Source: a bacterium (GTDB lineage Bacteria; Zhuqueibacterota; Zhuqueibacteria; Zhuqueibacterales; Geothermadaptataceae). Taken from it: a stretch of 40,788 nucleotides of DNA. This document shows, in pieces, positions 17,076 to 28,749 of this stretch. The position numbers and the translations under genes are program-made. The stretch lies in the NCBI GenBank assembly GCA_024275575.1, contig JAJRYV010000047.1, positions 1-40,788 on the forward strand. Direction: 5' to 3'. A model generated the notes under the pieces. It was not told the origin of the DNA and did no database searches. It saw only the letters and a list, made by a program, of their open reading frames with translations. Position 1 is the stretch's first letter. The number at the start of each line of letters is the position of its first letter.

Positions 17076-18421
17076 AAATCCGCCTGATCACCCTGGGATG
17101 CCCTAAAAACCTCGTCGATTCCGAATTCATCGCCGGCGGGCTGCAAAAAAACGGCGTCGAATTCACTGATCATATCGATGATGCGGATGCGATTATCATC
17201 AACACCTGTGGTTTTATCGAATCAGCAAAAGAAGAGTCTATCGAGACGATATTGCAGGCTGTTGCCTTGAAAAATGAAGGCAAATGCCGCCAGGTGCTGG
17301 TCACCGGCTGCCTTTCCGAGCGCTACGGCTCCGAGCTGAAAAAAGAGATTCCGGAAATCGATGGCCTTTACGGCAACCGAGATTTGTCAAAAATATTGCG
17401 GGAAATGGCACGACAGCTTCATTTACGCACAGAATTGCTTGGTGAACGCCAGTTGCTGACGCCACGTCATTTTGCCTATTTAAAAATTTCTGAAGGCTGT
17501 GAGCATCCCTGTACATTTTGTGCCATTCCGGCGATTCGCGGCGCGCACAAAAGCAGGAAAATCGAAACGTTGGTGCAGGAAGCGGAACATCTCGCGCGCC
17601 GGGATGTGAAAGAACTGGTGCTCATCGCGCAGGATTCAACGCTCTATGGCGCTGATATTTATGGCGAAAAACGATTGCCGCATCTGCTCAAAGCACTCAA
17701 CGCGGTAGAAGGCATCGAATGGATTCGTCTGATGTACGCTTATCCCTATCATGTCACCGATTCACTGCTCGAGGCAATCGCCTCGCTGGATAAAGTTTGC
17801 TGCTATATCGACATGCCAGTGCAACACATCAACGACCGCATTCTCAAACGCATGGCGCGGCATGTGGACGGGAATTTTCAACGCGAACTCATCGAAAAAA
17901 TGCGTTCCCGGATTCCCGATCTGACATTGCGCACCTCTTTAATCGTTGGCTTCCCCGGTGAAAGCGAGGCGGAATTTCAACAGCTTTATGATTTTGTCGC
18001 CGAAGGGCATTTCGACCGCCTTGGAATTTTCACTTACTCGCATGAGGAAGGCACTCCGGCGACCCGCTTCGAAGATGATGTGCCTGATGCAATCAAACGC
18101 GAGCGACAAGACCTGCTCTATCAAATGCAGGCCGATGTTGCGGAGGAAAAGAACAGCCGTTTTAAAAACCGCAGTGTGAAAGTGCTCATCGATGAATTTG
18201 ATTCGATCGAAAATGTTTATTGCGGCCGCACTGCCGCCGACGCTCCGGAAATCGATAACGTCGTTAAAGTGACCGGTGAATGCCGGCCGGGGGAATTTTA
18301 TTCCGTGCACATCAGTGAGACGAGCGCATACGAAATGCATGCCGGTATCGATAGCGCCAACAGCGAGAAAAGCCGTTCGCCCGGTGGTCAAATTCACCTG
18401 CCCATTGCAAAAAAGAAATGA
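17072..18421 (+). CDS. rimO: Ribosomal protein S12 methylthiotransferase RimO
   Basis: The 449-aa radical-SAM enzyme adds a methylthio group to an aspartate of ribosomal protein S12. The N-terminal cluster cysteines are C10, C46 and C80; the radical-SAM CxxxCxxC is C143, C147 and C150 (ISEGCEHPCTFCAIP, typical of RimO rather than MiaB). A TRAM domain follows toward residue 430, then a short polar tail. Its start overlaps ftsY by four bases (ATGA), so the two are co-translated. Confidence 0.95.
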   Translation: MKIRLITLGCPKNLVDSEFIAGGLQKNGVEFTDHIDDADAIIINTCGFIESAKEESIETILQAVALKNEGKCRQVLVTGCLSERYGSELKKEIPEIDGLYGNRDLSKILREMARQLHLRTELLGERQLLTPRHFAYLKISEGCEHPCTFCAIPAIRGAHKSRKIETLVQEAEHLARRDVKELVLIAQDSTLYGADIYGEKRLPHLLKALNAVEGIEWIRLMYAYPYHVTDSLLEAIASLDKVCCYIDMPVQHINDRILKRMARHVDGNFQRELIEKMRSRIPDLTLRTSLIVGFPGESEAEFQQLYDFVAEGHFDRLGIFTYSHEEGTPATRFEDDVPDAIKRERQDLLYQMQADVAEEKNSRFKNRSVKVLIDEFDSIENVYCGRTAADAPEIDNVVKVTGECRPGEFYSVHISETSAYEMHAGIDSANSEKSRSPGGQIHLPIAKKK

Positions 18422-18428
18422 GGGTGTC

Positions 18429-19742
18429 ATGTTAAAAAAAACAAAATTTGTCGTTTTGTTGCTGCTCGTTTATTTTGTCGGTGGAAAATTACTTTATGCC
18501 CAGGTCGAGTTTGATCAAAAATCGATAACTTATCTGCCGTCATTTTATATCGATATCATCAGCTCGCGAGCCGAAAACGGCAATAACAAATTTACGCTTT
18601 ATTCAAAAATCCCGTTCGATGAAATTCAGTTTTTAAAATCGCAGCATGGTGGATTCAAGGCCACTTACGAAATGAGTATCACGATTTTTGATGATCACGA
18701 CTATCAGGTTGACGGCAAAATTTTTGAGCGGACGGTGACGGTCTCTGAATATGAGCAGACCAATGCTACTGATCTTTACGATGTTGTCCAGCGATCGTTT
18801 ATCATCAAACCCGGAAAGTATAAAGTCTTTGTGCAATTGGAAGACCTGGACAGCCACAAAATAGGGGTTTTTGAAGAAAAAATCGAGTTGCCGGATTATT
18901 CGAAAAAGCCACTGAGCATCAGTTCGATCCTGTTTTCAGAAAAAGTCCGGGTTGATTCTTCCGGCAACCTCATCCCGTTACCCCTGGTTGGCGTGCCGCG
19001 GATTGAAACCGGGAATTTATACGGTTTTTTCACCATCTATTCAAAAAACAATAAAGATTTTGAAGTTGAAGTCGTCGTGCGCAATATGCGCAATAAAAAA
19101 TTGTACAAAGATAAGCGGAAACTTGCATATCTGGGAGAAGAAACCGCTGTCGCAATTGCCATCCCCGATGCAAAATTATCACTGGGCACCTATAATTTTC
19201 AGATAAAAGTGAAGCAGGGCCGTGAACACGCTTCCTTGCACGAACAGTTTAAAATATACTGGCAGGGTTTGCCGCTTACCGGCATCGATCTCAAATCGGC
19301 TATCGAGCAAATGGATTTGATTGCCAGTCACAAAGATTTAAAAAAAATCTCAAAAGCGCCGCCGGCGTATCAGCGTGAGTTTTTCAAGCAATTCTGGAAG
19401 CAGTACGACCCGACTGCCGGAACGGATAAAAATGAATTGATGGATGAATATTACCGCCGTATTCAATATGCCAATGATAATTTCCGCGGCTTGCGCGAGG
19501 GTTGGAAAACAGACATGGGTACGGTGTATATCCTGCTCGGCGCCCCCGAAGAGGTGTTGCGGGAAATGTCGCCGCAATACATGACGTCGTTTTTTTCTAC
19601 GCGTCCGGTGAAAGCGCTGCAAATCTGGAAATATCACTCCCTCAACCGTTATTTTATCTTTGTCGATGAGAATGGTTTTGGCGACTACCGTCTCGATAAC
19701 CCGGCTGTTTTAAGTGAGTTTCGCAATACTTTTCGCTATTGA
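18429..19742 (+). CDS. GWxTD domain-containing secreted protein
   Basis: The 437-aa protein has a signal peptide (residues about 5-26, ending at YAQ). A long beta-rich region follows, about residues 30-300, with Ig-like text (ETGNLYGFFTIYSKNNKDFEVEV). The C-terminal domain carries LREGWKTDMGTVYILLGAPEEVLR, the defining GWxTD motif. This family is typical of Bacteroidota, Acidobacteriota and relatives, and its function is not known. The ATG 18429 follows GAGGGTG, which overlaps the rimO stop, so translation is coupled to ftsY-rimO. Probably periplasmic or outer-surface. Confidence 0.85.
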   Translation: MLKKTKFVVLLLLVYFVGGKLLYAQVEFDQKSITYLPSFYIDIISSRAENGNNKFTLYSKIPFDEIQFLKSQHGGFKATYEMSITIFDDHDYQVDGKIFERTVTVSEYEQTNATDLYDVVQRSFIIKPGKYKVFVQLEDLDSHKIGVFEEKIELPDYSKKPLSISSILFSEKVRVDSSGNLIPLPLVGVPRIETGNLYGFFTIYSKNNKDFEVEVVVRNMRNKKLYKDKRKLAYLGEETAVAIAIPDAKLSLGTYNFQIKVKQGREHASLHEQFKIYWQGLPLTGIDLKSAIEQMDLIASHKDLKKISKAPPAYQREFFKQFWKQYDPTAGTDKNELMDEYYRRIQYANDNFRGLREGWKTDMGTVYILLGAPEEVLREMSPQYMTSFFSTRPVKALQIWKYHSLNRYFIFVDENGFGDYRLDNPAVLSEFRNTFRY

Positions 19743-19881: not shown

Positions 19882-20823
19882 ATGCACAATATCATAAAAC
19901 CACCACGCCTTAAACGCAACGCAACGATCGGTGTCATTTCACCCGCCAGCCCGGTGAAAGATGAACGGCTGCAACGGGGGATTGGTTATTTTGAAAGCCT
20001 GGGATATCGCATCGAGCTTGGCGAGCATGTGATGCGGTCTTCGACCTACCTCGCCGGTGCGGATGAGGAACGCCTTGCCGATTTGCATGCCATGTTCCGG
20101 CGGCCTGATATCGATGCCATTATGTGTGCGCGCGGCGGCTACGGCACACCGCGATTTCTCGATAAAATCGATTACCACTTGATCCGTAAAAATCCCAAAA
20201 TTTTTATCGGCTACAGCGATTTGACTGCCCTGCAACTGGCTCTTTTTCATAAAACCGGACTTGTGACTTTCTCCGGTCCGATGCTGGCCGTAGAATTTGC
20301 CGCTTAAGAAATCGATCCCGATACTGAAACCGCCTTTTGGCAAATGCTCGGCGAGGCACAGGCTTTTGGTGAAATGCGCCCCTTAAAGGGTAAAAAATAC
20401 CCCGTACTCTGTGCCGGAGAAAATAGCGGTTGCCTGCTCGGCGGCTGCCTCGCACTCATCAATAGCAGCCTGGGGACGGATTTTTTGCCGGATTTTTCCG
20501 GCTCGATTTTGCTCATCGAAGATATCGATGAAGCACCGATGCGTATCGATCGCTGTTTGGCACAGTTGCGAAACGCCGGTATTTTAACGCAGGTCAATGG
20601 TGTTATCTGCGGCCGATTCGCTGATTCTGAAAATGAGGAGGAGCGTGCCGGGCGCTGGCTGCAACAGACACTTGAGGATTATTTCAGCGAATTCGGCAAA
20701 CCGGTTTTGAATAAATTCGACTATGGCCACATCGGCCGGAAATATACCATGCCCATCGGCGTCAATGTTCGAGTTACTTCCAGCCCCGCAAAAGTCGAAA
20801 TTCTGGAAGCGGCGGTGCGTTGA
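19882..20823 (+). pseudogene. Peptidase S66 LD-carboxypeptidase, interrupted by an in-frame stop
   Basis: The reading frame is continuous in one phase from 19882 to 20823 except for a TAA at 20305-20307 (codon 142). Both halves match S66 murein LD-carboxypeptidases, which trim the terminal D-Ala of tetrapeptide stems. The catalytic triad survives: S112 in IGYSDLTAL, E213 in LLIEDIDEAP and H283 in DYGHIGRKYTMPIG, with positions near the known S115, E217 and H285. The 5' half ends at VEFAA and the 3' half resumes at EIDPDTE with no frameshift, so one base change from GAA, CAA or AAA explains it. Possible alternatives are sequencing error, recoding or reinitiation at ATG 20344. The stop separates Ser from Glu/His, so neither fragment alone should be active. 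Confidence 0.85.
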
Positions 20824-20826
20824 AAA

Positions 20827-21456
20827 ATGATTTCTGCAGATTATAAAATCGCTGTATTGATTTCCGGAGGCGGTTCCAATTTTAAAGCGATTCATCAGGC
20901 GATTAAGCAGGGAAAAATCAGCGGTCGCATCGCCTGTGTTATCAGCAGTAGCACACAAGCCGGCGGTGTGCAATATGCCCGGGAAAACGACTTGTCTCAT
21001 TTCGTTCCTGAAACGGAAACCTTAAAAGATGAGCGGGCATTTGCAACCTTTTTGCAGGAGAAATTAACCGTTGAAAAGGTTGCTCTTGTGGTTCTCGCCG
21101 GATTTCTGAAAAAAATTCCGGCAGCATTCATCGAATCATTTCCCGGTCATATTATCAATGTTCATCCGGCATTATTGCCGGCGTTCGGTGGCAAAGGCAT
21201 GTATGGCCGCCGTGTACATCAGGCGGTGATTGACTACGGCTGCAAAATCTCCGGTGCGACAGTGCATCTCGTCGGCAGTGAATATGACTCCGGCCCACCG
21301 ATCATGCAGAAAAGCGTGCCCGTTTTGACCGGTGATACGCCGGAAAGCCTGGCCGCCCGTGTTTTAAAGACCGAACATGAGATATTGCCGAAGGTCGTCG
21401 CCTGCTTTGCCAATAATCAAATTGAAATTACGGGGCGAAAGATAAAGATAACTTGA
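20827..21456 (+). CDS. purN: Phosphoribosylglycinamide formyltransferase
   Basis: The 209-aa enzyme transfers the formyl group of 10-formyltetrahydrofolate to GAR. It has the N-terminal ISGGGSNF phosphate loop, the catalytic segment INVHPALLPAFGGKGMYG (the N, H and surrounding loop) and SEYDSGPP carrying the catalytic aspartate. Length is normal. ATG 20827 lies three bases after the stop of the LD-carboxypeptidase gene, so it is probably on the same transcript. With purH downstream, this is a purine pair separate from purF. Confidence 0.95.
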   Translation: MISADYKIAVLISGGGSNFKAIHQAIKQGKISGRIACVISSSTQAGGVQYARENDLSHFVPETETLKDERAFATFLQEKLTVEKVALVVLAGFLKKIPAAFIESFPGHIINVHPALLPAFGGKGMYGRRVHQAVIDYGCKISGATVHLVGSEYDSGPPIMQKSVPVLTGDTPESLAARVLKTEHEILPKVVACFANNQIEITGRKIKIT

Positions 21457-21518: not shown

Positions 21519-23093
21519 GTGAGTTATAGTATGAAACCAGCCCGAAACGCTTTAATCAGCGTCACCGACAAAACAGGAATCGTCGATTTTGCCGCTGCCC
21601 TGGTGGAGCAAAATATCCGCATTTTCTCAACCGGCGGTACGGCCAAAACATTGCTCGGTGCCGGTCTGCCGGTCACCAATATCGCTGATCTGACAGAATT
21701 TCCGGAAATTATGGACGGCCGGGTAAAAACGTTACATCCGAAAGTATTCGGTGGTATTCTTGCACGCCGCGAAAAAGATGAACATCTGCGTGAGGTAGAA
21801 TCTCACGAAATACCGTTGTTCGATTTCGTCATCATCAATTTGTACCGCTTCGCAGAAACTGTCGGCGAAGCAGGAGTATCTCGTGCTAAAGCACTGGAAA
21901 ATATCGATATCGGCGGTGTTACTCTGATTCGTGCTGCGGCGAAAAATCATAAAGATGTTGCCATAATTACCGTTCCCGATCAATATGAGCATGTGCTTGC
22001 CGAGTTAAAAAATAATGCGTTTGAATTAACAGCGACGACGAAAGAAAAACTCGCTGTGGCCGCGTTTGCCACAAGCGCGAATTATGATGCACAGATTTAC
22101 AAATATTTGTCCGAAACCTTAAATGGAACACAGGATTTCGCAGAACTCTATCTTCAACCGTATAAGAAAAAGGATGTGCTGCGTTACGGCGAAAATCCGC
22201 ATCAGAAAGCAGCGGTTTATGAAAATACCGGCGGTTGCTTTGGCGGAGTTCTAAGAGCACGGCAATTGCAGGGAAAAGCGCTTTCGTATAACAATTACAT
22301 GGATGGCGATGCAGCTTGGCTTATCGTGCGTTCTTTCGAAAAACCTGCTGCCGCGATCATTAAACATGCAAATCCCTGTGGGGTTGCAACCGCGGCCTCT
22401 CCGGCAGCGGCTTATCGCCGGGCGCTGGCAACGGATAGTATTTCGGCCTTTGGCGGCATCGTGAGTTTGAATCGCGATGTTGATGCAGTGACGGCAGTCG
22501 AAATTAGCAAAATATTTACGGAAGTCGTCATCGCACCCGGTTTTTCGCAAGAGGCGCGAAATATTTTGGCGGGCAGGAAGAATCTGCGTTTGCTGGAATT
22601 GCATGATTTTTATCATCTGCACGAAAAAGATGTTGAAATGCGCTGCATAACTGGCGGTATTCTCATTCAGGATAAAGATTTACCGGCCGATGAAACAGCC
22701 GGATTTGAAGTTGTGACGAAGCGGCAGCCGGATGAAAAAGAGTGGGCAAATTTACTTTTCGGCTGGAAAATCGTCCGTTGGGTAAAATCGAACGCGGTGA
22801 TTTATGTCAAAGATGAGCAGACTTTCGGCATCGGCGCCGGGCAGATGTCGCGGGTTGATTCGTCACGACTGGCGGTGGAAAAAGCTAAAATCGCCGGTTT
22901 GGCACTCACAGGCAGTACGGTTGCCTCGGATGCATTTTTCCCCTTTGCTGACGGTGTGGAAGCTGCGGCCAAAGCCGGCGCTACCGCAGTCATCCAGCCA
23001 GGCGGTTCTATCCGCGATGCAGAGGTAATCGCTGCTGCGGATCAATTCGAAATGACGATGGTGTTCACGAAAAAGCGTCATTTCCGGCATTAA
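21519..23093 (+). CDS. purH: Bifunctional AICAR formyltransferase/IMP cyclohydrolase
   Basis: The 524-aa protein carries out the last two purine steps. The N-terminal IMP cyclohydrolase (MGS-like) domain has [17 protein letters not shown] and [20 protein letters not shown]. The C-terminal AICAR transformylase domain has [25 protein letters not shown] (catalytic K and H region), [19 protein letters not shown] and [13 protein letters not shown]. It starts with GTG at 21519 or ATG at 21531, neither with a good Shine-Dalgarno; homologues would fit 21531 at least as well. It is full length. Confidence 0.95.
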
Positions 23094-23350
23094 CGGTTTG
23101 GTTGCTTATGACCGGGTTATCGTTCTCGGTTTTTTTTCACCGGGAATGCTGTGACCGGGTTAATGAAAACAAACGCTTGCGTGATGAAATCTTAAGCGAT
23201 TAAAAATAAAAATAATGAAAAAATATGTTTAAATTATATATTTATTTGATGTTTATGAAGTTTTATCTAAATTATCATCCTGCATGATGCTGGAGCATGC
23301 TGTAAATATCAATTTCAGAAGGTATAGAAACAGGAAAGTTGAGAGGAAGA
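23094..23350. promoter_or_regulatory. Gap before the rod operon, weak promoter and direct repeat
   Basis: TGACCGGGTTA occurs twice, at 23109-23119 and 23152-23162. The region 23200-23280 is very AT-rich. TTGATG at 23246-23251 with TAAATT at 23268-23273 (16-base spacing) is a possible weak promoter for mreB. GCATG/CATGC (23282-23286/23296-23300) form a short inverted repeat after it. Confidence 0.35.
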
Positions 23351-24382
23351 ATGGGATTTTCGCTGCAAAGTCTTATAACGAACGACATCGCCATTGATTT
23401 GGGCACCGCAAACACACTGGTTTATGTTCGCGGTCGGGGCATCATTATTCGTGAGCCCAGCATCGTCGCTGTTCGCAAACTGGATCAGGAGATCGTTGCC
23501 TATGGTAAAGAAGCCAAGGAGATGCAGGGGCGAACACCCGGGGAAATCACTACCGTACGGCCGCTGAAAGACGGGGTTATCGCTGACTTTGAACTGGCTG
23601 AAGCGATGATTCGACATTTTATCAAAAAAGTCGGCAATACCCATTTACGTCGCCCGCGGGTTGCCGTCTGTATTCCCTCCGGCATCACCGATGTTGAAAA
23701 GCGTGCTGTGCGAGATTCCTGCGAGCATGCCGGCGCCCGCGAAGTGCATTTGCTTGACGAACCGATGGCTGCCGCGATCGGTGTCGGTTTGCCGATCGAA
23801 GACCCGGTGGGCAGCATGGTCATCGACATCGGTGGCGGAACCACGGAAATTGCCGTCATTTCACTCTCGGGCATCGTCACCGATATTTCCATTCGCATCG
23901 GCGGTGACGAGATGAATGACGCGATCATCCAGCATTTTAAACGAAATTACAACCTGCTGGTGGGTGAAAATACTTCGGAGGATATCAAATGTACTTTGGG
24001 GTCTGCGGCGCCATATAACGAAGACGCGACGATGTCGGTTCGCGGACGTGATTTGGTTGCAGGTATTCCCAAGACGGTTGAGATTTCACAAAAAGAAGTG
24101 CAAGAGGCCTTGTCCGAAGCGGTCAATGCGATCGTTGACGCGACCAAATTATGTCTGGAACGCACGCCGCCGGAGCTCTCCTCGGATATCCTCGACCGCG
24201 GTATTGTTTTGTCGGGCGGCGGCGCCTTGCTTAAGGGTATCGATGAAAGATTACGGGAAGAAACCAGCCTGCCGATCGTCGTTGCAGAGGACCCGCTCAC
24301 CTGTGTCGTTCGTGGAACAGGCCGCGTGCTGGAAGATTTGCCCCACTATTCGAAAGTATTGAGTAAAGTGAGAAGATATTAA
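23351..24382 (+). CDS. mreB: Rod-shape-determining actin homologue MreB
   Basis: The 343-aa ATPase forms membrane-associated filaments that guide cell-wall elongation. Motifs are NDIAIDLGTANTLVYV (phosphate 1), VAVCIPSGITDVEKRAV, LLDEPMAAAIGVGLP, SMVIDIGGGTTEIAVISL (phosphate 2) and LSGGGALLKGIDE (adenosine). ATG 23351 follows GAGAGGAAGA. The in-frame TTG at 23339 is less likely. It leads the mreBCD-mrdA-rodA operon. Confidence 0.97.
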   Translation: MGFSLQSLITNDIAIDLGTANTLVYVRGRGIIIREPSIVAVRKLDQEIVAYGKEAKEMQGRTPGEITTVRPLKDGVIADFELAEAMIRHFIKKVGNTHLRRPRVAVCIPSGITDVEKRAVRDSCEHAGAREVHLLDEPMAAAIGVGLPIEDPVGSMVIDIGGGTTEIAVISLSGIVTDISIRIGGDEMNDAIIQHFKRNYNLLVGENTSEDIKCTLGSAAPYNEDATMSVRGRDLVAGIPKTVEISQKEVQEALSEAVNAIVDATKLCLERTPPELSSDILDRGIVLSGGGALLKGIDERLREETSLPIVVAEDPLTCVVRGTGRVLEDLPHYSKVLSKVRRY

Positions 24383-24415
24383 TACGGGATGATGAATTTG
24401 GTGAAAAATTAGGCG

Positions 24416-25243
24416 ATGCCGAAAGAACTCAAAGTTATTGATATCCAATATTTGTCGGTCACACGCAGCGAGTATTTTACATTTTTAATCTGTCTTGTTG
24501 TCTCCCTGTGTCTGATCTTTCTAAACGATAATCCGCAAATAAATAATGTGCGTGCGGCCGTTGTCGATAGTTGGGCGCACACATTACAAACCATTTCAAA
24601 ATACCGGTCGATGGCTGAAATGCGTGATGAATTGTCACGCTTGCGTCAGCGTACCAGTTATTTATTGCTGGAAAACAGCAATTTGCGCAATGCTGCGTTG
24701 GAAAATTATCGCCTGCGTGAAATGCTGAAATTCAAAGAATCGAGCGCTTACAAACTGATTGCCGCCAGCGTGATCGCCCGCGATCAGGATCAGCTGACAC
24801 GATCCGTAACCATCGACGCCGGCTCTGCGGACGGTGTGGCCAAAGGCGACCCGGTGATTCTTCCCGGGGGAATCGTTGGAAAAATCTTGCGCGCAGGGAA
24901 ATCGACCTCTATTGTTCAACTCATTTCAGACCACAGTTTTCGTGTTGCCTGTAAAATTCAGCGCAGCCGGGTCAACGGTATTTTTCAACATCGGGACAGC
25001 CGCACAAGCTTGTTGACGCAAGTGCCCAAAAACGCTGATGTGCGGGTCGGTGACGTCGTCGTCACCTCCGGTTACAGCCATGTTTTCCCGGCGGAAGTCT
25101 TGGTTGCCCGGGTTATCGCCACCAACTCAGACGCCCCCAGTTTATTTCAAATTATCGAGGTTGAACCCTTTGTCGATATCACCACCATCGAAGATGTTTT
25201 CATCGTAAAAAGGATGGAAATAAAATCTGCTGAAGAAAAATAA
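24416..25243 (+). CDS. mreC: Cell shape-determining protein MreC
   Basis: The 275-aa protein has a short cytoplasmic N-terminus, one transmembrane helix (about residues 19-36, YFTFLICLVVSLCLIFL), a helical/coiled-coil stretch to about residue 105, and a beta-rich periplasmic domain with DAGSADGVAKGDPV, GIVGKILRAG, SDHSFRVA and a late GDVVVTSGYSHVFPAEV. This is the usual MreC layout. It links the MreB filament to the periplasmic wall-synthesis enzymes. It starts 33 bases after mreB. Confidence 0.93.
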   Translation: MPKELKVIDIQYLSVTRSEYFTFLICLVVSLCLIFLNDNPQINNVRAAVVDSWAHTLQTISKYRSMAEMRDELSRLRQRTSYLLLENSNLRNAALENYRLREMLKFKESSAYKLIAASVIARDQDQLTRSVTIDAGSADGVAKGDPVILPGGIVGKILRAGKSTSIVQLISDHSFRVACKIQRSRVNGIFQHRDSRTSLLTQVPKNADVRVGDVVVTSGYSHVFPAEVLVARVIATNSDAPSLFQIIEVEPFVDITTIEDVFIVKRMEIKSAEEK

Positions 25244-25249
25244 TCGCGC

Positions 25250-25729
25250 ATGAAATACTTGTCTTATTCCTTGATTTTTATCGGTTTACTGATTGGGCAA
25301 ATCAGCCTGTTGTCCTTTTTCCCGGGCAACAGCCGCCCCGATATTCTATTGCTGGGTATCATCGTACTCGGCATGCGTGAAGGTGGCGTTCCCGCGATGA
25401 TTACAGCCTGTCTGGTGGGTTTTGTCAAAGATGCGTTTACGACTTCTTATATCGGTGCCAGCATGCTCGGACTCGTCGTCGCTGCGTTTATGGCTGGAAA
25501 TTATCGTCATATCCAGCTCAAACTTGGCACCCAGAGCAAACTGATTCTTTTCGCGCTCATCATCATCGTTTATGACTTTATCTATTACACGCTTTTTCAG
25601 ATCAAAGCCGAATTGCATATTTTTGATTTACTGATCAATTCTGTCTTGCCTGCAGCTTTTTATACCCTGCTCTTCGCGGGAATCGCTCATTTTCTTATTC
25701 CGCACGGGTTGCTGGGAACAAAAAAATGA
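25250..25729 (+). CDS. mreD: Rod shape-determining protein MreD
   Basis: The 159-aa protein consists of about five hydrophobic helices with RPDILLLGIIVLGMREG near the start and GFVKDAFTTSYIGASMLGLVVAAF in the middle, typical of MreD. It is an inner-membrane partner of MreC, RodA and PBP2. It begins six bases after mreC and overlaps mrdA by four bases (ATGA). Confidence 0.9.
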   Translation: MKYLSYSLIFIGLLIGQISLLSFFPGNSRPDILLLGIIVLGMREGGVPAMITACLVGFVKDAFTTSYIGASMLGLVVAAFMAGNYRHIQLKLGTQSKLILFALIIIVYDFIYYTLFQIKAELHIFDLLINSVLPAAFYTLLFAGIAHFLIPHGLLGTKK

Positions 25730-27513
25730 GACCGGGATTTTCACAGAACAATCGCCTGATTATCTTTCGTGTTTTTTTGATTTTGACTTTCTGCATGCTG
25801 CTCTTTCGCTATGCTTATGTTCAATTGATCCAGCAGGATATTTATTATCGGCAGAGTGAGCGCAACCGTATCCGGCCGATCACGCTGGTGCCGCCGCGCG
25901 GCATCGTGCGCGATCGCTACGAAGAAATCCTCGTCGATAATGTGCCTGGTTATTCCATTTACATCATCCCCAACGAATTGACCTCAGCGGATTCAGTGTT
26001 TGATTCCCTTGGGCAGTTGATCGGCAGGTCGCCGGACCAGCTTCGCAAGGTTTACAAGCGCGACCGTCGCGGTCGGTTTCAAAAAGTAAAAATCTGCCGC
26101 TATATCGATTTTGCTTCATTAGCGCAAATCGAAGAAAATAAACTCGATTTACCGGGTATCGTCTATGGCATCGAGCCGCGACGGTCCTATCCGGCGGGCG
26201 TTAAAGCACCGCATTTGTTCGGTTACCTCGGCGAAATTGACGAGAAAGGCCTGCAATCTGAAGAATTTGCCGAATATGAGCGCGGTGATATCATCGGAAA
26301 AGCGGGTATTGAACGTGTTTATGATAAAATTTTACAGGGGGAAAAGGGTTATCAGATTGTCGAAGTCGATGCGATGGGCCGGGAAATTGGCGTTCTCGAT
26401 CAGTTGCAATCGCAGGATCCCGTCCCCGGCCTGGAATTACACCTTTCCATCGATGCGGGTTTGCAGCGTTTTTTGGAGCAGAAAATGGATACCCTGCGAG
26501 GCGGGGCAGCAGTGCTCAATTGTCAAAATGGTGAAGTCGTGGCACTGGTCTCAAAACCTGGTTACAGTCCGGATTTGTTCGCCAGACCGATCACCCAAGA
26601 AGCATGGGCAAAATTGACGAGAGACCCGGCGAAACCCCTCTATGACCGTATGGTGCAAAGCGGTACAAATCCGGGTTCGACTTATAAACTCATCACCGCA
26701 ATCGCCGGATTGCAGGAAAATCTCATCAACCCGGATGAAAAAGTGTATTGCCCCGGCGTCTATCGTCTCGGCCGCCGGTTGTTTAAATGCTGGAAAGAAG
26801 CGGGGCATGGCAGTGTCAATTTGCAGCAGGCAATCGAACAGAGCTGTAATGTTTATTTTTATCGCATGGTGCAGAAAATCGGCCTTGAAAATTGGGCAAA
26901 ATACTCACGCCTGTTTCATTTCGGTGAAAAGACCGGGATCGATTTGACCCAGGAATACAGCGGTTCTGTCCCGGATAAAGCCTATTTTGACGAACGCTAC
27001 GGCGTCGGGAAATGGAGCAGGGGTTTGTTGCTGAATTTGACGGTCGGGCAGGGCGAATTGCTCGTGACCCCTTTGCAGATGGCTACATTTGCCTTGCTGA
27101 TCGCCAATCGCGGGGAAGGCTTTCGCCCGCATGTGAATCGACTGATTAAAAACCCCGAAACCGGTGAGGTCACATTATTTGAACCCCAGCCACTGTGCGT
27201 CAACGGTATTCGCGAAGCAGTATGGGATAAAGTGCATCAGGGCATGTATGACGTGGTCAATGGCGTGCATGGCACAGCCAAACGCGCCAACCCCCGGCGA
27301 ATGGGAATGAAAGTCGCTGGGAAAACCGGGACTGCACAAAACCCGCATGGTGATGACCATGCCTGGTTCATCGGTTTTGCCCCTTTTGATAATCCGAAAG
27401 TAGCGTTCTGCTTTTTTGTTGAAAATGGCGGCGGCGGCGGCGCCGTTGCCGCACCCATCGCCGGCAGCATGTTGCGTTATCTGCTTAGAGAAAAGAAAAT
27501 TAAACCAAATTGA
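25726..27513 (+). CDS. mrdA: Penicillin-binding protein 2 (peptidoglycan transpeptidase)
   Basis: The 595-aa class B PBP crosslinks lateral-wall peptidoglycan together with RodA. After one N-terminal membrane helix (about 14-33) comes the dimerization/pedestal region with PPRGIVRDRYEEILVDN. The transpeptidase domain has S318-xx-K321 (PGSTYKL), S373-x-N375 (SCN) and K533-T-G535 (GKTGTAQ), so the active site is intact. A run of five Gly codons (27427-27441) codes a glycine stretch before AVAAPIA. Its ATG overlaps the mreD stop. Confidence 0.96.
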   Translation: MRPGFSQNNRLIIFRVFLILTFCMLLFRYAYVQLIQQDIYYRQSERNRIRPITLVPPRGIVRDRYEEILVDNVPGYSIYIIPNELTSADSVFDSLGQLIGRSPDQLRKVYKRDRRGRFQKVKICRYIDFASLAQIEENKLDLPGIVYGIEPRRSYPAGVKAPHLFGYLGEIDEKGLQSEEFAEYERGDIIGKAGIERVYDKILQGEKGYQIVEVDAMGREIGVLDQLQSQDPVPGLELHLSIDAGLQRFLEQKMDTLRGGAAVLNCQNGEVVALVSKPGYSPDLFARPITQEAWAKLTRDPAKPLYDRMVQSGTNPGSTYKLITAIAGLQENLINPDEKVYCPGVYRLGRRLFKCWKEAGHGSVNLQQAIEQSCNVYFYRMVQKIGLENWAKYSRLFHFGEKTGIDLTQEYSGSVPDKAYFDERYGVGKWSRGLLLNLTVGQGELLVTPLQMATFALLIANRGEGFRPHVNRLIKNPETGEVTLFEPQPLCVNGIREAVWDKVHQGMYDVVNGVHGTAKRANPRRMGMKVAGKTGTAQNPHGDDHAWFIGFAPFDNPKVAFCFFVENGGGGGAVAAPIAGSMLRYLLREKKIKPN

Positions 27514-27522
27514 AGACAGGTT

Positions 27523-28749
27523 ATGCTCTGGGATCGTGAAGAACTAAAAAGGCCGGATTTTGTTTTACTGTTTGCTTTTGTGGGTTTGCTGCTCACCGGG
27601 TTATTGATTATTTATAGCGCCACCCATGGCGCCAATGCAGAAATCCGGAATAATTTCCCCAAACAGGCCGTGTGGATCGTTTCCGGCGTGCTGCTTTTAG
27701 CATTCCTCTCCTTGCTGCCGTTTAAATTTTTTCACGAGGCGGCGGTGCCATTTTATATCTTTTCAATTATTTTGCTCGTGGCGGTTCTGGTTATCGGCGA
27801 CGGAACCGGCGTCAAACGCTGGCTGGTTGTGGGTCCGTTGCGCCTGCAGCCATCGGAATTGGCAAAAATCGCCACACTTCTGCTGCTTGCAAAGTACGCG
27901 TCTGAAGGCAAGCGCGATTTTAAACAGATTAAAAATATCTCAGTGGCTTTCTTTCTGGTGTTGTTGCCGACTTTATTGATTATCAAACAGCCCGACCTGG
28001 GAACCGCGCTTGTTTTCATGGCGATGATTTTGCCGGTATTATTCTGGGCAGGACTCTCTCTGTTTATCGTCTTTCTGCTGATCGCCCCGCTGATCACACT
28101 GGCTTCCGCTTTTAATTTTTACAGTTTTTTTACCACGATAATTCTGATCGTCAGCGTCATGGTTGCCTCCGGCAGGGGAGCGAAAATCATCATTCCGAAT
28201 TTTCTCCTGAATATCGGCGTCGGGATCGTCACACCGATGTTGTGGAATCAATTGCACGGCTATCAGAAAAGCCGCATCCTTACTTTCATTGGCCTGGAAC
28301 AAGACCCGCGTGGGCTGGGTTATCAGGTTTTGCAATCCAAAGTGGCAATCGGTTCGGGGGGATTGTGGGGTAAAGGCTGGCTACAGGGTACCCAGACTCA
28401 CTTGCGCTTTCTACCGGAGCAACACACCGATTTCATCTTTTCGGTACTCGGTGAGGAGTTTGGTTTTATCGGCGTCTGTTTCGTCCTCGGGTTGTTCTTT
28501 ATTCTGTTGTGGCGGGCGTTAAATATTGCACAAACTTCAAAAAACAAATTTTCCAGCCTCATCGTCATCGGTGCTTGCACCATCATTGCGTTTCATGTTT
28601 GTGTAAACACGGGAATGACCGTCGGCATCATGCCGGTGACCGGCTTGCCGTTGCCGTTTTTAAGTTATGGAGGATCTTCTTTGCTGACCAATATTGTTCT
28701 CATCGGTTTGATCATCAACGCCGGTCGGCGGCGGTTTCAATACCTCTAA
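27523..28749 (+). CDS. rodA: SEDS-family peptidoglycan glycosyltransferase RodA
   Basis: The 408-aa polytopic protein polymerizes lipid II glycan strands. Around ten helices are visible, with GVKRWLVVGPLRLQPSELAK early, KQPDLGTALVFMAM in the middle, LPEQHTDFIFSVLGEEFGFIG and the C-terminal MPVTGLPLPFLSYGGSSL, all SEDS signatures. The catalytic aspartate is expected in the conserved loop near the QPDLGTA motif or the following one. It follows mrdA by nine bases and closes the operon. Confidence 0.95.
   Translation: MLWDREELKRPDFVLLFAFVGLLLTGLLIIYSATHGANAEIRNNFPKQAVWIVSGVLLLAFLSLLPFKFFHEAAVPFYIFSIILLVAVLVIGDGTGVKRWLVVGPLRLQPSELAKIATLLLLAKYASEGKRDFKQIKNISVAFFLVLLPTLLIIKQPDLGTALVFMAMILPVLFWAGLSLFIVFLLIAPLITLASAFNFYSFFTTIILIVSVMVASGRGAKIIIPNFLLNIGVGIVTPMLWNQLHGYQKSRILTFIGLEQDPRGLGYQVLQSKVAIGSGGLWGKGWLQGTQTHLRFLPEQHTDFIFSVLGEEFGFIGVCFVLGLFFILLWRALNIAQTSKNKFSSLIVIGACTIIAFHVCVNTGMTVGIMPVTGLPLPFLSYGGSSLLTNIVLIGLIINAGRRRFQYL

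Follow-up and report, generated by a model that had tools for sequence, protein, structure and literature searches.

A lone in-frame TAA in an otherwise complete S66 LD-carboxypeptidase gene may be a consensus base-call error

Introduction

A single in-frame TAA divides a bacterial S66 LD-carboxypeptidase gene, raising the question of whether the organism has lost the enzyme, makes it despite the stop, or carries a whole gene whose consensus sequence is wrong. The first-pass annotation had offered very recent loss, a sequencing or assembly error, or programmed readthrough. The first two still stand, since relatives have a sense codon at this position, the gene lacks other decay and similar stops recur in the assembly; the third is disfavoured. 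The window, meaning the whole stretch of DNA that was analysed, covers bases 1–40,788 of contig C20 (115,711 bases in length), part of a draft genome of 4.96 Mb in 144 contigs, 97.7% complete (hereafter G000); G001 and G002 denote genomes of the same genus.

Results

Domain architecture and neighbourhood of the interrupted gene

The gene and its neighbours are arranged as follows.

18276–19742 (+): GWxTD-domain protein, upstream neighbour, intact (order common to G001 and G002)
19882–20304 (+): N-terminal half of the S66 LD-carboxypeptidase (PF02016), with nucleophile Ser112 (translation, Pfam, alignment)
20305–20307 (+): in-frame TAA, codon 142, between the two Pfam domains (translation, alignment)
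20308–20823 (+): C-terminal half (PF17676), with Glu213, His283 and the terminal stop (translation, Pfam, alignment)
20827–21456 (+): PurN-type formyltransferase, downstream neighbour, intact (order common to G001 and G002)
21519–23093 (+): PurH (AICARFT/IMPCHase), intact (order common to relatives)

Translation of 19882–20823 (+) yields 141 amino acids, the TAA, a further 171 amino acids and the terminal stop in constant phase, and no frameshift was found within this frame, in agreement with the earlier description of one phase and a sole TAA at 20305–20307. The bases following the stop are GAA ATC, again as described. In the read-through product, PF02016 covers residues 16–132 (E 2e-43, 147.5 bits) and PF17676 covers residues 182–298 (E 5e-33, 114.6 bits), both above cut-off and in the same frame, with one TAA separating them. 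The read-through protein is 69% identical to its counterpart in G001 and 68% to that in G002, indicating that the S66 match is not due to chance. The interrupted frame is a two-domain S66 LD-carboxypeptidase, complete apart from one TAA; in the sequence as given, that TAA at codon 142 leaves no single uninterrupted S66 chain.

The protein resembles LdcA of peptidase family S66 (PDB 5z01/5z03, 1zl0, 1zrs, 6uuk) in both Pfam domains, the Ser-Glu-His triad and a near full-length alignment, and differs from it in the one TAA that lies between the domains in the assembly. The MccF microcin C immunity branch of S66 (PDB 3tla, 3gjz) belongs to the same fold and triad family, with profile hits to E 2e-54, and its solved structures also align along the protein; however, LdcA-type carboxypeptidases (6uuk, 5z01) head the profile hits, and no microcin genes were recognised at the locus. 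The enzyme would probably have the usual LdcA activity.

Genomic context is likewise LdcA-like, as the gene lies ~2.5 kb ahead of the MreB, MreC, PBP2 and RodA genes. The order GWxTD–S66–PurN–PurH–MreB is identical in G000, G001 and G002, and the PurN-type gene starts 3 bases past the S66 terminal stop. The cell-shape cluster itself (23339–28749) comprises MreB, MreC, a 159-aa protein in the MreD position, a PBP2-type transpeptidase and a RodA-type protein.

Conservation of the S66 gene among relatives

Alignment with 28 relatives (one genome per species, the nearest ~69% identical in the S66 protein) revealed that all 60 near-invariant columns are kept in G000, including the triad S112, E213 and H283, which is present in 29 of 29 aligned sequences. 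The earlier view of an LD-carboxypeptidase that is otherwise intact and retains its triad is upheld. A comparison with close relatives at this locus had also been proposed; it gave a sense codon at the codon-142 column in 28 of 28 aligned relatives, with no stop in any of them. The residue is Glu in G001, G003 and G005, Ala in G002, and Gly, Lys, Arg or others in farther relatives.

The G000 branch of the S66 tree (0.256) displays no acceleration relative to those of G001 (0.274) and G002 (0.270). Downstream of the TAA, private changes at otherwise invariant columns are likewise not in excess (1/39 in G000, 5/43 in G001 and 1/39 in G002). As the gene is otherwise without decay, the TAA must be of very recent origin if it exists at all. 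Searches for S66 matches returned one in the G000 genome and two in G001; neither a second copy nor a trace of one was found in G000.

Recurrence of isolated stops in the assembly

We compared genes of G001 with the DNA of G000, sampling 0.94 Mb of G001 and 76,288 aligned amino acids. Eight of 182 shared genes contained exactly one internal stop in G000 in a frame otherwise intact, among them genes for a UvrD helicase and a PMT_2 glycosyltransferase, and none of the eight had a second internal stop. In the reciprocal comparison of G000 genes with G001 DNA, an internal stop was found in about 1 of 197 (L308:607), the other rows of that list being discounted on reading as gene ends or weak alignments; the difference is significant (Fisher P 0.016). 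Internal stops are therefore more frequent in G000 than in a close relative, a pattern expected of spurious pseudogenes. The stops in the eight genes are TAA and TAG in differing contexts. A single isolated stop is not special to the S66 gene; it recurs across the G000 assembly.

Contig C20 itself holds further lesions. Against the colinear 84 kb of G001, a second in-frame TAA was located at C20:65228 in a PMT_2-family glycosyltransferase gene (64988–66670), where G001 and G002 have Glu, and a membrane protein gene at C20:49016–50001, which forms one frame in G001, probably shifts frame near 49843, where there is a run of seven T. The reverse comparison over the same stretch disclosed no clear internal stop in real G001 genes. 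Additional cases came from scoring 1.39 Mb of G000 for hexamer coding signal, followed by checks against relatives; a codon-usage scan alone was too noisy, and hexamer scoring together with comparison to relatives was required. These include a TAG in a UvrD/Rep helicase gene (C5:9087; L050:9085–9087, minus strand) at a residue that is Glu in 6 of 6 homologues compared, a single TAA in a prolyl oligopeptidase gene (C18:14598), a TAA in an ECF-sigma-like protein gene (C26:12051; Lys in close relatives), and three more single-stop genes (C64:13644, C65:8886 and C43:8140). The rpoB, rpoC and main EF-G genes are intact in G000, with scores like those of G001.

A bias of GAR to TAR, placing all extra stops at Glu, was considered and rejected: the residues replaced in seven other genes are 3 Glu, 2 Gln, 1 Lys and 1 Gly, and cases with Trp and Ser occur as well. 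One shared gene carries a stop in both genomes, at different positions: a TAG at C42:10819 in G000 (Trp in G001) and a TAA at L308:607 in G001 (Asp in G000), perhaps reflecting real parallel decay.

Consensus error or recent nonsense mutation

We favour, at a probability of roughly one half (0.52), the reading in which a wrong base call in the draft consensus created the TAA and the organism itself possesses an undivided, normal LdcA-type S66 carboxypeptidase. A technical origin of the S66 stop is suggested by several lines of evidence: isolated stops recur in G000 and hardly in G001 of the same genus; at the S66 column all 28 relatives have a sense codon, while the near-invariant columns are kept and the branch is not longer; contig C20 has a second stop and a frameshift in a stretch where G001 has no clear one; and the UvrD stop replaces a Glu conserved in every homologue compared. 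That none of the eight genes has a second stop fits substitution errors rather than a set of aged pseudogenes. Cooley and Wright (2024, PMC11017572) showed that spurious pseudogenes arise from low coverage and low read quality, and that too many internal stops are the sign of a poor assembly. The G000 genes are similar to those spurious pseudogenes in their isolated stops, intact frames and excess over a near relative, although that study drew on reads and on genomes 99.9% identical, whereas the comparison here uses the assembly consensus alone and a nearest genome ~69% identical in S66.

The main competitor, somewhat less probable and still a serious contender, is a nonsense mutation of very recent date, whether fixed or still segregating among strains, that inactivated the lineage's only S66 carboxypeptidase as one of several recent single-lesion pseudogenes. 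Such a loss would be too young to have left further decay, as observed. Interrupted genes tend towards lower conservation than random hits would give (mean identity 69.3% versus 75.4% overall, P=0.03; small numbers), which keeps real mutation open, and dispensable-looking types such as the prolyl oligopeptidase and the PMT_2 glycosyltransferase are among them. This lower conservation, together with the intact RNA polymerase and main EF-G genes, weakly favours tolerated real mutations. Since 3.9% of random substitutions create a stop, attributing all stops to errors would imply ~9 errors per 10,000 bases by arithmetic, a high rate given the 97.7% completeness of the genome, and one that counts against the error reading. 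Against a recent mutation, each interrupted gene has one internal stop only, the lesion mix is substitution-heavy (8 nonsense versus about 2 frameshift candidates), and G000, in which selection might have been relaxed by a second S66 gene as present in G001, shows no trace of one. We rank base-call error first because the evidence for real mutation is weak and the numbers are small.

Readthrough, split-chain and decoding alternatives

Explanations in which the TAA is real and the enzyme is made nonetheless fare far worse. Readthrough, in which part of the messages would yield the full-length S66 enzyme, could draw on the coding character and conservation kept by the frame past the TAA, and on the several other genes interrupted in a similar manner. 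We consider it very improbable: none of the 40 identified tRNAs (41 found by Rfam) has a stop-reading anticodon; no ordinary terminator is used more often here than TAA, which closes 138 of 290 long frames; the 100-base stretch starting at the S66 TAA is no more stably folded than its shuffled versions (z -0.13); the interrupted genes involve TAA, TAG and TGA in unrelated contexts; and a stop at the codon-142 column is absent from all aligned relatives. Neither a decoding tRNA nor a stimulatory context for programmed readthrough was thus detected among these tRNAs, in the downstream fold or as a context shared by interrupted genes, consistent with the first-pass remark that no obvious readthrough context follows the stop.

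Equally hard to credit is a split enzyme of two associating chains, one per domain, with the second produced by restart past the TAA. The stop does lie between the two Pfam domains, and conserved residues are kept in both halves. The first possible restart codon is the following.

20344–20346 (+): Met155, first possible restart codon past the TAA (translation, alignment)

No Shine-Dalgarno-like sequence precedes it, and a start there would omit the conserved T148, E149, F152 and W153, yet all four are preserved. None of the relatives listed has an internal stop in S66, and a substitution within the inter-domain stretch is unremarkable. Taken together, readthrough and a two-chain enzyme account for only a small share of the probability. 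We give next to no credence to an unrecognised ambiguous decoding of TAA and TAG, by which UvrD, the S66 peptidase and others would be made at a low level from interrupted genes.

Discussion

If the base-call error reading is correct, the organism would have a whole LdcA-type enzyme, whose Ser-Glu-His triad would cut the terminal D-amino acid off recycled murein tetrapeptides. The recurrence of isolated stops also calls for caution, as reads would be needed before any single-stop pseudogene or readthrough candidate of G000 is taken for gene loss or recoding. Should the stop instead be real, this lineage would have lost what is apparently the only S66 carboxypeptidase of its genome, encoded beside the cell-shape genes.
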